DNA of 64,000 nt from an uncultured Flavobacteriales bacterium. Its GTDB lineage: Bacteria > Bacteroidota > Bacteroidia > Flavobacteriales_D > Parvicellaceae. This document shows positions 19,282-27,804 of this stretch, piece after piece (position 1 is the first letter of the stretch; every line of letters begins with the position of its first letter). A program made the position numbers and the translations under genes. A model generated the notes under the pieces. The model ran no database searches and was not told the origin of the DNA. It was given only the letters and a program-made list of their open reading frames with translations. The stretch spans positions 434,001-498,000 of the forward strand of contig CALSRM010000003.1 in assembly GCA_943788755.1 (NCBI GenBank). Reading direction: 5' to 3'.

Positions 19282-20068
19282 ACGTTTTTAGAAACCCGAC
19301 TTCTTTTTTGTCTAGTATTCTCCATTTCCCTCGCGTAACTTTTCCTTTCTTAAGCCCTGCAAACTCAATTCTATCTAGTTTTACAACATCGTAGCTTAAA
19401 TGCTCAAACATTCTTCTTACAACTCTGTTTTTTCCGGAATGAATTGCTACCAAAACAATAGTTTTTTGACCTCGAGCACCATTATACTCTGCACTATCAA
19501 AAACACTTATCCCGTCTTCTAGTTCAACGCCTTCCGTTAACTTTTCCAAATCGGCCTCTTCAACAGGTTTATCCAACACGGCTTCGTATATTTTTTTCAC
19601 TTCATAGCTAGGGTGAGTAAGTCTTTTGGTTAATTCTCCGTCGTTTGTAAATAACAACAACCCTGTAGTGTTTCTGTCTAATCGACCAACCGGATAAACT
19701 CTTTCTGCGCAGGCTCCTTCTATTAGCTCCATAACCGTTTGTCGATCGTGCGTGTCTGAAACCGTGGTGATATAGTTTTTTGGTTTATTTAGTAGAATGT
19801 ATTTAAAGCGCTCTTTTTTTAATCTTTTCCCCAAATACCGTACATCATCTGAATCACTAACTTTATGTCCCATTTCAGTAACAGCATCTCCATTTACCGT
19901 TACATCTCCTTTCGCTATCAGCTTATCTGCTTCACGCCTAGAACACACACCTGCATTTGCAATGTATTTATTTAAACGGATGTTTTCGACAACCTCCTTA
20001 CTCGTTTCCGATTTATTTGAAATCGTTTTTGATTTGTTCGAGTAGTTTTTTCCTTTCTTATTTCCCAT
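19274..20068 (-). CDS. 23S/16S rRNA pseudouridine synthase, RsuA/RluB type
   Basis: A basic N-terminal extension (1-28) leads into an S4 RNA-binding domain (RLNKYIANAGVCSRREADKL, about 31-50) and the catalytic domain with GRLDRNTTGLLLFTNDG, where the nucleophile is D131. The family converts specific rRNA uridines to pseudouridine. RluB is the likely equivalent, but RluB, RluE, RluF and RsuA cannot be separated by eye. The gene overlaps the 3' end of rnc by 8 bp on the opposite strand. Confidence 0.9.
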   Translation of the reverse strand: MGNKKGKNYSNKSKTISNKSETSKEVVENIRLNKYIANAGVCSRREADKLIAKGDVTVNGDAVTEMGHKVSDSDDVRYLGKRLKKERFKYILLNKPKNYITTVSDTHDRQTVMELIEGACAERVYPVGRLDRNTTGLLLFTNDGELTKRLTHPSYEVKKIYEAVLDKPVEEADLEKLTEGVELEDGISVFDSAEYNGARGQKTIVLVAIHSGKNRVVRRMFEHLSYDVVKLDRIEFAGLKKGKVTRGKWRILDKKEVGFLKTSK

Positions 20069-24380: not shown

Positions 24381-25814
24381 TTATCGTATTATAACAACTT
24401 TTTTAGACTGCAGCAATTGATTATTTTGAATTACCTGGACAAAATAAGTCCCCGTAGCAAATTGACTACAGTCAATACTTTCCTTGTCGTTATAAACCTT
24501 TTTAGAAAGTAATACCTCTCCTAACTGGTTAAGAAGCTGTATTCTCGAATTAGACACCCCATCTAAAGTTATTTCATTGACAGCAGGGTTAGGGAATATC
24601 GAAATCGTTTTATTTACTTCATTGATTCCAACACTGCCAACAATAGCTGTACGGTACGTAACACCTCCCGTATAACCGTTTTGGTATACAAAGTGGAACA
24701 CACCATCAGCAAAAACAACATCCGGATTAGTCTGGCTTGCAAGTGGTTGTTCGTTTAACAGAGCTATTGAATCAAGTTTTGAATCCCCATCAAATGTATA
24801 TGCAAAATAACATTCATAGCCTGGGGATCCAGAAATATATTCCTGATAAACAACTCCAATTGTATTTCCTTCTCCCGCTATTCTTGGGTAATTTTGTGAT
24901 CCTTGTTGAACCCCTGGCATTCCCCAATTGGTTGTGCTAATTGCATTCGATTTATCCACTGTAGTAATCATTGCTTTTGAGGCTCCTGACGCACCAGTCA
25001 TCCATACCATATAAAAACTATTATTAATAAAAGCCCCATGAGCTCCACTTGATGGACATGCATTTAGAACCCACTCGGCATCGTCGACGTCACCTCCTAT
25101 TGGAAAAGTTGCTCCTCCGTCAGCAGAAAAGGAGGCCCACATATCTCTTAAGTTAGCGTTATTATCTCGAAATAAAAGTGCTTGGTTTGATCCGTTTAAA
25201 ATAATTTCAGAAGGGCAGCAGTCACATACTTCTGCTCCTGATAGCGCTTCACTCGCATTAATTGGTGTTTGCCAAGTTGTTCCTGCGTCAGCGGAGTTAG
25301 AAACGACATAGCGGGGATTAGTCCAGTTCGCATCGTGTGCCATATAACTTGCCGCAATATCTCCATTTACGTTACTTCCAATTGAAGCGAATCTGTTTAA
25401 GCCGCTATACCCACTAATGTTTACCGTATCCGAAAAAGAAACGCCAGCATCTGTTGACGTTACATTATAAACGTCAAATCCAGAATTTAATTCCGCATCA
25501 TAAATAACCCACACTGAATCACCTTTAGCTGCAATATCTGGGCCTGTCCAATTAGCTGTATAAGGGTTTATGCCTGAGGGGCTTACCGCAATAGGCGTGG
25601 AAAATGCTCCGCCATTTAATCGAGAAACATATACGGGTTGAGCGCCCGTTCCTCCTCCCCACACAATAATAGGAACATTATTTGAGGTCAATGCAATTCG
25701 AGGTCGAAGGTTTCCATAACCACTTGCAACTTCTGTTTCGGCAGACCAAAACAATTCTTGTGAAAATGCGAAACTCGTGAGAAATAATACAACAAAAGTC
25801 AAAGATGATTTCAT
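24381..25814 (-). CDS. Secreted Asp-box protein with T9SS type A sorting domain
   Basis: A signal peptide (1-18, FAFSQE) is followed by a probable beta-propeller. At least three Asp-box-like turns are visible (STDAGVSF, NSADAGTTW, SADGGATF), as in sialidases and other BNR proteins. Sialidase catalytic arginines were not identified, so an enzyme call is not justified. Residues about 400-477 are the type A sorting domain: ISIFPNPAVNEITL, then QLLNQLGEVLLSK, then GTYFVQVIQNN and a basic tail. It is likely exported by T9SS and kept on the surface. It is monocistronic. Confidence 0.85.
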   Translation of the reverse strand: MKSSLTFVVLFLTSFAFSQELFWSAETEVASGYGNLRPRIALTSNNVPIIVWGGGTGAQPVYVSRLNGGAFSTPIAVSPSGINPYTANWTGPDIAAKGDSVWVIYDAELNSGFDVYNVTSTDAGVSFSDTVNISGYSGLNRFASIGSNVNGDIAASYMAHDANWTNPRYVVSNSADAGTTWQTPINASEALSGAEVCDCCPSEIILNGSNQALLFRDNNANLRDMWASFSADGGATFPIGGDVDDAEWVLNACPSSGAHGAFINNSFYMVWMTGASGASKAMITTVDKSNAISTTNWGMPGVQQGSQNYPRIAGEGNTIGVVYQEYISGSPGYECYFAYTFDGDSKLDSIALLNEQPLASQTNPDVVFADGVFHFVYQNGYTGGVTYRTAIVGSVGINEVNKTISIFPNPAVNEITLDGVSNSRIQLLNQLGEVLLSKKVYNDKESIDCSQFATGTYFVQVIQNNQLLQSKKVVIIR

Positions 25815-26005: not shown

Positions 26006-27061
26006 ATGGACATTTCTAAGAAAAAACCGGCCTATGCTATTAGTACACAATTAAGGTTATATCTTGAGAAATTCGATAGAGACATGAAACTTCCTGTGAG
26101 CTATGAGGGTTTGATGCATTGGAAAGAAGGGTTTCCAATTATGGATAAAAACGGAGAAGACACGCTTTGGGAAAGTGTGATGTACGAGCCTTCTCGAATG
26201 GAGGAATTAAATCAAGGCTTAACCCAGGTATATGCATTGCTAAAAACAGATGGTGATCTCTCTGTCATCGGTCACCTTCGGGTGGACCGAATTGACTTTT
26301 GTCATTTTGGAAACTCCAAACCTTTTCGTATCCGAATTATTAACCAGTTTAATGATAACTACGATTATTTCTATGTTAAAATAGCTGATGCTTCTCGCGT
26401 TTATGGATTAGAGTTTGAGCATATTCTTAGTCCAAATCGAATTAATTATTTAGTTGATGGTAATTCACTAATTGAAGAACATATTGCTGGTATTCCAGGA
26501 GATCAATTTATAGATCAGTTTTTGTCCATGCCGAACTTTGGAAAGATTCGATTAGCAAAAGAATTTGTTAAGTTTAACGAGCGTTGTTTTGTGAGGCTCC
26601 TCGGGGATATGAGATCATACAATTATGTAATTGATGTCACTCCTGACTTTGAAGAGGCGCAATACCGAGTTCGCGCAATCGATTTTGACCAACAATGTTA
26701 CGAAGGAAGGAAAAACGTTTACTTGCCTCAATTTTTTAAAGAAAACAATGCGATAGTAGATTTCTGTCGAGACATTATGACGCCTGAAACGATTACGCAA
26801 TATAAATACGAAGAAAGAATTTTGATTAAAAAGAGATACGCATCAGCCTCGTACCGAACGAATGACCTGCTAGTGGCAATAAAACAAGACACCATCTCTA
26901 CGCCTAAAAAAACAGATCAATTAAAAACAGAACTTAACAAATACCATGAAAACCAAGAGTTTAATAGTTGTAAAACTATGGGAGAAATTATGGGTGTTCA
27001 CTTAGAGCTAATGCTTACCAAGCCCATTCCTGAAAAAATTTCCTCTGCTTTTAGGCTTTAG
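26006..27061 (+). CDS. Conserved hypothetical protein, possible protein-kinase-like fold
   Basis: This 351-residue protein has no signal peptide and is probably cytosolic. I do not recognise a named family. Several elements recall protein-kinase-like or aminoglycoside-phosphotransferase folds: YFYVKIAD (K125 as a possible nucleotide-binding Lys), SLIEEHIAGIPGD (154-166, hinge-like), VRLLGDMRSYNYVI (D201 and N206, like the GD-x(4)-N catalytic loop) and RAIDFDQQ (D226 or D228 as metal Asp). The spacing of 25 residues between catalytic-loop Asp and IDFD fits such folds. The kinase idea is inference only. TAAATTTG, a -7-like element, lies 4 bp before the ATG, which would imply a leaderless transcript. 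Confidence 0.5.
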   Translation: MDISKKKPAYAISTQLRLYLEKFDRDMKLPVSYEGLMHWKEGFPIMDKNGEDTLWESVMYEPSRMEELNQGLTQVYALLKTDGDLSVIGHLRVDRIDFCHFGNSKPFRIRIINQFNDNYDYFYVKIADASRVYGLEFEHILSPNRINYLVDGNSLIEEHIAGIPGDQFIDQFLSMPNFGKIRLAKEFVKFNERCFVRLLGDMRSYNYVIDVTPDFEEAQYRVRAIDFDQQCYEGRKNVYLPQFFKENNAIVDFCRDIMTPETITQYKYEERILIKKRYASASYRTNDLLVAIKQDTISTPKKTDQLKTELNKYHENQEFNSCKTMGEIMGVHLELMLTKPIPEKISSAFRL

Positions 27062-27285: not shown

Positions 27286-27804
27286 ATGAATGTATTCTTT
27301 ACATACCTTATTGCTGGACTATTAGTGAGTAGTCCAATTGAAGAAAAAAAGTTAACACAAACAATTTCTGGAACAATAACCACTTCTGGAAGTTACTGCG
27401 GTGGAGTTGCTCCTTCGGAAGAAATGCTTCAAAATGCTCAAGCTAAAAGGCCTATGAGTGGTTTTATGGTCTATGTAAAAAAGGGAGCAGAGAACAAATT
27501 AATGTCCAGCATTGTTGATAGCACCCGCACAGACTCCAATGGAAACTATTCATTCGACTTGAAACCAGGAGAATATGTTCTTTTGCAAAAGGAGCAATTA
27601 AATGAAGACGTTTATAAAACATATGAAGCGTCTAAATGGCTTCAAGCAGATGTTGACTGCATGAAATTATGGTGGGAAAAAGGACTATCAAATATAACTA
27701 TTGAAAATGAAAACATTGACAGTTTAAATTTTCATTTTCAAAAACGATGTTTTGTTCCCTTAAGCATTCCTTGTTTGAGGTACTCTGGTCCTTATCCTCC
27801 TTGA
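27286..27804 (+). CDS. Exported carboxypeptidase-regulatory-like domain protein
   Basis: A short hydrophobic N-terminus (1-16) acts as a signal peptide. The mature protein begins LTQTISGTITTSG, has a Cys-containing loop CGGVAPSEE, and then a beta-sandwich motif D-S-N-G-N-Y-S-F-D-L-K-P-G-E-Y (about 84-98) typical of transthyretin/carboxypeptidase-regulatory domains. Four other cysteines (C125, C150, C160 and one near the start) could form disulfides. Function unknown. A 20-bp palindrome lies just upstream. Confidence 0.6.
   Translation: MNVFFTYLIAGLLVSSPIEEKKLTQTISGTITTSGSYCGGVAPSEEMLQNAQAKRPMSGFMVYVKKGAENKLMSSIVDSTRTDSNGNYSFDLKPGEYVLLQKEQLNEDVYKTYEASKWLQADVDCMKLWWEKGLSNITIENENIDSLNFHFQKRCFVPLSIPCLRYSGPYPP

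Follow-up and report, generated by a model that had tools for sequence, protein, structure and literature searches.

An unassigned protein family of Bacteroidota and Verrucomicrobiota with invariant kinase motifs and a kinase-like predicted fold

The window analysed here, a stretch of 64,000 nucleotides, carries at positions 26006-27061 of the plus strand an open frame that encodes a protein of 351 residues (ATG start, stop codon included); the opposite strand of the same interval is broken by many stops. The gene stands alone. It begins 191 bases after a divergently oriented gene on the minus strand (24381-25814), and 224 bases 3' of it lies a gene for a 172-residue protein (27286-27804, plus strand) with a weak carboxypeptidase-regulatory-like match. 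The product of the divergent gene bears a Por_Secre_tail sorting domain (E = 6.3e-12) in addition to a sub-threshold BNR-repeat match, and is, judging from these matches, a probable type IX-secreted protein. A single copy of the 351-residue gene is present in the window's own genome. No RNA families were found with Rfam between positions 20000 and 34000 and no tRNA genes across the whole window, scans for promoters and terminators returned no more than shuffled sequences gave, and no small same-strand HipB-like partner adjoining the gene was seen in the window.

The original prediction had listed the protein as unassigned and as the possible founder of a new kinase-like family. Unassigned it remains, as no family in Pfam, NCBIfam or PADLOC was matched at E <= 10, phmmer and hmmsearch comparisons with PDB sequences gave no usable match, and hmmscan against PHROGs gave no usable family assignment. 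In particular, neither PF00454, the PI3K family, nor APH (PF01636) matched the window protein (P0001) at E <= 10; when 49 members of the family were compared at E <= 1, 23 Pfam families gave a match, and neither PF00454 nor APH was one of them. HipA (PF07804), CotH/Fam20C and the LanM dehydratase domain (PF13575) also gave no Pfam-A match at E <= 10, CotH being compared by hmmscan alone. As a side observation, the 95-position profile phrog_36767 was weakly matched (E 0.0064-0.038) at residues 102-139 of P0001 and at the equivalent residues of L092 and L108, that is, in all three members tested; these matches, near residues 100-139, span the stretch from the candidate P-loop to helix alpha-C described below.

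Conservation was assessed in a set assembled from 177 homologous loci, which yielded 175 distinct proteins and, after one of 290 residues had been dropped, 174; eleven more from a search of the phylum brought the total to 185. Among the 174 proteins 32 columns are invariant, and among the 185, 29 of 351. The three spaced elements on which the kinase proposal was built, V-K-I-A-D (K125), L-L-G-D-M-x-x-x-N (D201, N206) and A-I-D-F-D (D226, D228), are all present as written, and not one of the 185 distinct homologues differs at K125, D201, N206, D226 or D228. The residues invariant throughout the 185 also include D128, R131, G134, E138, H159, G162, G200, M202, F227, Q229, Y239 and N247. Around the motifs the wording is less fixed: either V or I occurs at residue 124, the residue after K125 is variable, and at residue 203, two positions after D201, 163 of the 185 proteins have R and 22 have H.

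An AlphaFold2 model computed from 49 sequences has a kinase-like fold with good confidence (pLDDT 88.0, pTM 0.86), and fold searches return kinases on top; structure prediction and a fold search were the checks proposed at the outset. From its N-terminal side the modelled core consists of strands 91-99, 107-113 and 118-126, helix 129-141, which carries E136 and E138, and strands 148-151 and 154-158, followed by a hinge, helices 165-171 and 180-196, the loop with D201 and N206, strands 207-212 and 219-224, the D226-F-D228 motif and further helices. This order of strands and helices is the general kinase plan. The core modelled alone (residues 85-351) again showed the kinase element order with a pLDDT of 87.6, so that a bilobal kinase fold is predicted in both models. 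The loop after D-F-D has the lowest confidence of the core, with block means of 73 and 67.

The conserved motifs fall in the elements of the model where a kinase would carry them. Residues 102-109 (G-N-S-K-P-F-R-I; 26309-26332, plus strand, as are all intervals that follow) lie between strands 91-99 and 107-113 and form a candidate ATP-phosphate turn, or P-loop, together with the start of the next strand; among 174 homologues N103 and P106 are present in all, R108 in 173, and 164 carry G and 10 carry A at position 102. K125, the presumptive ATP lysine, stands at the end of strand 118-126 ahead of helix 129-141, the equivalent of alpha-C; D128 and R131 come next, where the helix starts (residues 125-132, K-I-A-D-A-S-R-V; 26378-26401), and all three are invariant in the 185. 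A candidate for the alpha-C glutamate that pairs with the lysine is found in E-F-E at residues 136-138 (26411-26419), where E138 is conserved in 185 and E136 in 183 of 185 proteins. The predicted hinge between the lobes (residues 157-166, E-E-H-I-A-G-I-P-G-D; 26474-26503), between strand 154-158 and helix 165-171, contains the invariant H159 and G162. The putative catalytic loop (residues 198-206, L-L-G-D-M-R-S-Y-N; 26597-26623), with G200, D201, M202 and N206 in all 185, places D201 and N206 in the loop after helix alpha-E; D226 comes after the next hairpin, in a putative metal-binding, DFG-equivalent segment that follows strand 219-224 (residues 224-229, A-I-D-F-D-Q; 26675-26692) and whose D226, F227, D228 and Q229 are invariant. 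An activation-loop-like segment ensues (residues 230-249; 26693-26752), with conserved Y239, P241 and N247, the first and last of these in 185 of 185; it is a candidate for the part that recognizes the substrate.

The key residues of kinases, in the numbering given in passages of PMC1821047, are G52, K72, E91, H164, D166, N171 and the DFG aspartate D184. Judged from how the motifs are spaced and where they lie in the model, the equivalents of K72, D166, N171 and D184 are K125, D201, N206 and D226. Candidates for the equivalent of E91 are E136 and E138, and G102 is a candidate for that of G52. The histidine of the HxD motif (equivalent to H164) is absent, residue 199, two before the catalytic D201, being L in 173 and I in one of 174 proteins. 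According to the same passages, nearly all key residues are missing from some kinase family or other (PMC1821047).

Foldseek searches with the whole protein gave VPS34 as the top hit (E = 1.3e-5) in a list that also included Ser/Thr kinases and Bud32, and in the viral library giant-virus Ser/Thr kinases led (E = 3.7e-6). As TM-scores in the whole-protein search reached only 0.25-0.40, the Foldseek searches by themselves say just "kinase-like". The structural class was examined with VIA-align, which re-aligned chains picked by Foldseek and whose Z-scores can be trivial below 8. With the whole protein, the best 50 of 996 chains all belonged to the PI3K/PI4K/PIKK class (mTOR, ATM, VPS34, PI4KIIIbeta), with Z of 11.3-13.6 over 244-280 residues; with the core, the best 50 of 1000 chains again all belonged to this class (Z 10.6-12.4, rmsd 3.6-4.3 Å, 209-231 residues), unlike the Foldseek list for the core model, which consisted nearly entirely of Ser/Thr kinases. 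APH, HipA, CotH and LanM chains stood outside the best 50 of either run and may still rank lower. The proposed kinase-like fold is supported, with one correction: the nearest solved folds among the chains compared are those of PI3K/PI4K/PIKK enzymes rather than of HipA, APH or CotH; this class assignment rests on two predictions from nearly one alignment.

Profile-profile comparison with hhalign gave no significant link to any kinase family compared, among them HipA and APH, two of the families named for such a search at the outset. APH was the least bad (E = 0.0069, 27 columns, probability 5.6%), followed by HipA_C in the wrong register (E = 0.11), Pkinase (E = 0.27) and PI3K (E = 0.47). The profiles were built from 4 and then 6 sequences for PI3K/PIKK, the E-value above being that with 6, from 24 for HipA_C, 21 for APH and 15 for Pkinase, segments with a stop or of 150 residues or less having been excluded, and the family alignment used in the comparison is not very diverse (Neff 3.1). 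Scoring of windows around the motif anchors gave z values of 2.0, 2.0 and 2.6 for PI3K, 2.3 and 2.7 for APH (two windows) and 2.2 for Pkinase in one of three. Since the PI3K values are matched by APH, and once by Pkinase, this scoring does not decide the class.

Taken together, the kinase-like predicted fold, the invariant motif residues, their location in the appropriate elements and the lack of a family match support the proposal of a kinase-like family, which is new but lies inside the known kinase superfamily. With a probability of about 0.68, we favor the reading that its members are active, cytosolic, single-domain, ATP-dependent phosphotransferases with a PI3K/PI4K/PIKK-type fold, which would act on a soluble target and not on an inositol lipid. 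The observations establish the gene, how conserved and widespread it is, and the places of its motifs in the predicted fold; catalysis, the use of ATP and the type of substrate are our inference. As the residues needed for ATP use are kept, the protein is, on the evidence of its sequence, probably a working kinase. Its predicted structure suggests a fold like that of the PI3K/PIKK core, and probably a similar way of working; in view of the absence of a PI3K profile link despite the likeness in fold, we do not count the protein among the members of PF00454. In the mechanism that we propose, the ATP phosphates would be bound by K125 and the metal ions by N206 and D226, and the acceptor hydroxyl would be positioned by D201 with the aid of the basic residue 203 (R, in some members H). 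The target would be a soluble cell component, with a protein side chain or a metabolite as the likeliest choice. The PI3K-like wording of K-x-x-D-x-x-R and G-D-x-(R/H)-x-x-N argues for this reading, as does the protein's want of any membrane stretch (top 19-residue Kyte-Doolittle mean 0.63). Against it count D-F-D in place of D-F-G, the low Foldseek TM-scores, the hhalign E-value for PI3K compared with that for APH, the mismatch with PF00454, the undeciding anchor-window scores and the lack of a conserved partner gene (see below).

A rival reading is that the protein is a much-diverged small-molecule kinase of the APH/choline-kinase cluster, its likeness to PI3K reflecting similar packing of C-lobe helices only. 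APH is the sole family with a profile alignment, albeit a weak one, that keeps the right register (G-D-x-x-x-x-N ... I-D), its anchor-window scores equal those of PI3K, and the I-D-F-D wording resembles that of APH members. The protein departs from them in having L for the histidine of H-G-D and in the missing Pfam match, in P0001 as in the 49 members, and APH structures did not appear among the best 50 in either VIA-align run, lower ranks being possible. We consider this reading unlikely, though the likeliest of the rivals. A kinase fold put to other chemistry, such as transfer of AMP or glutamate, appears quite improbable. Such switches are known in the superfamily from SelO and SidJ, and the unusual wording (D-F-D, no HRD histidine) could be taken as a hint of one, but the classical catalytic positions are all kept in 185 of 185 proteins, and nothing points to a rewired active site. 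Very little speaks for a pseudokinase or non-catalytic scaffold beyond D-F-D where D-F-G is expected: K125, D201, N206 and D226 are unchanged in all 185 homologues, and the invariance of the catalytic positions, kept even in the most diverged copy (L259), is what one expects of an active phosphotransferase and not of a pseudokinase. An inositol-lipid kinase like VPS34 is scarcely credible, for although the nearest solved folds include lipid kinases as well as PIKKs, an inositol-phosphate synthase was found in 3 of the 44 genomes that have the gene and in 2 of the 36 that lack it (counts that concern synthesis, not uptake), and with 41 of 44 gene-bearing genomes devoid of the synthase, an inositol lipid is an unlikely target.

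Homologues are present in 15 of 39 genomes of the host family, 82 of 299 of the host order and 128 of 395 sampled genomes of the host class; in the phylum, 69 of 247 genomes gave a match at E <= 0.01, one of which (E = 0.0096) was treated as noise. Among named genomes, at least 592 of 594 pattern-matching stretches encode a relative. Of the best 80, which were kept for study, seven come from Verrucomicrobiota (L066, L092, L093, L108, L111, L113 and L116) and the other 73 from Bacteroidota, as far as record names tell. Plasmids (72,556 records), phages (50,697 records) and viral contigs yielded no match. A quick tree of the 174 proteins, in which support is weak at 58 of 171 inner branches, united six of the seven verrucomicrobial sequences with one from Bacteroidia and put the seventh apart from them; proteins from the window's own family were spread over several separate places. 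These scattered positions suggest that transfer or loss of the gene is common. L259, on the longest branch (2.8 changes per column) and with 42% identity to the window protein, still has all catalytic residues. Together with L258 it resides in G521; both copies there are full-length (E = 3.7e-143 for L258 and 1.6e-112 for L259), and such a pair was seen in no other genome. At another locus (L011, genome G026) the homologous frame ends early, at 290 residues, with a TGA inside the match, and is possibly a truncated or broken copy. Four long homologous frames (L228, L229, L230 and L038) contained no other domain above its cut-off.

When the open reading frames of the 80 named loci and the window were clustered, no neighbour recurred across families, and gene order around the kinase-like gene was conserved within families only. 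Eight Chitinophagaceae-like loci (L079, L080, L081, L082, L087, L107, L110 and L112) share the surroundings of the gene, with a periplasmic-binding-protein-like gene upstream in seven and an aldolase-like gene downstream in seven. In two Spirosomataceae-like loci (L094 and L103) a RodA/FtsW-like gene lies upstream, at gaps of 59 and 25 bases, and in L096 and L114 a gene for 410 residues (transporter-like in L096) stands between the RodA/FtsW-like gene and the kinase gene. The names periplasmic-binding-protein-like, aldolase-like and RodA/FtsW-like were read from the neighbour sequences alone.

We found no description of this family in the open-licence literature, a search that does not in itself show its absence in print. 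An almost frozen active site, presence in 128 of 395 genomes of the class and the lack of a Pfam or NCBIfam model suggest that the family may be a missing piece of bacterial phosphorylation. A broader proposal, which we put forward tentatively and hold to be possible but somewhat doubtful, is that a minimal single-domain kinase of the PI3K/PIKK structural class, of about 350 residues, is native to Bacteroidota and Verrucomicrobiota and has a bacterial target unrelated to inositol lipids. If true, the catalytic core of mTOR, ATM and PI3K would have a bacterial relative that stands on its own, in a class known from bacteria mainly as LanM domains and pathogen effectors. Were the likeness to PI3K/PIKK enzymes real, the family would provide a bacterial counterpart, small and soluble, to kinases that have otherwise been studied as parts of large eukaryotic complexes, and would bear on possible bacterial roots of that class.

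Several bacterial systems invite comparison. HipA has a kinase-like fold in bacteria; the present protein differs from it in lacking a Pfam match and a profile link, and in its stand-alone gene with no HipB-like neighbour seen in the window. Two widespread, novel bacterial kinase-like families, Lani_1194 and Lcin_0519, are described in parts of a study of the Legionella kinome, which includes kinase-like effectors near PI3K families (PMC9758233). Lani_1194, also found in Flavobacteriales, has R for the lysine, Lcin_0519, mainly from Proteobacteria, is without alpha-C, and both carry methyltransferase domains, which, as described there, set them apart from the family reported here (PMC9758233). 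The LanM dehydratase domain (CylM; DUF4135, PF13575), as presented in part of PMC4550811, is a precedent for a bacterial PI3K-type fold lacking sequence similarity; its D-x-H motif is a further point of likeness, its fused cyclase and kinase-activation domain are points of difference. Unlike LanM, the kinase-like protein ends at 351 residues, has no PF13575 match and is not fused to a cyclase. A link to LanM was rejected, PF13575 being found in just 2 of 149 genomes of the class, at L270 (G361) and L271 (G330); the DUF4135 frame in G361 is 516 residues long and may therefore lack the cyclase domain.

The closest solved folds in both VIA-align runs are those of PI3K/PI4K/PIKK enzymes (VPS34, p110, PI4KIIIbeta, mTOR, ATM; PF00454), eukaryotic kinases that act on lipids or in stress signalling. 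PI3K was listed as eukaryotic-specific in the relevant part of a 2007 kinome survey that distinguished 20 families of kinase-like proteins (PMC1821047). Our family differs from these enzymes in its size of about 350 residues in a single domain, in R being commoner than H in the catalytic loop, in D-F-D for D-F-G, in the absence of a sequence-profile match and in bacterial hosts mostly without inositol synthesis. In the catalytic loop, G-D-x-(R/H)-x-x-N compares with G-D-R-H-x-x-N in PI3K, so that the spacing is kept but the R-H pair is not. Shared with PI3K/PIKK enzymes are I-D-F, an ATP lysine placed directly before alpha-C (by four residues) and the pattern K-x-x-(D/E)-x-x-R, which reads K-x-x-D-x-x-R in the family, K-x-G-D-D-L-R in PI3K and K-G-H-E-D-L-R in mTOR.
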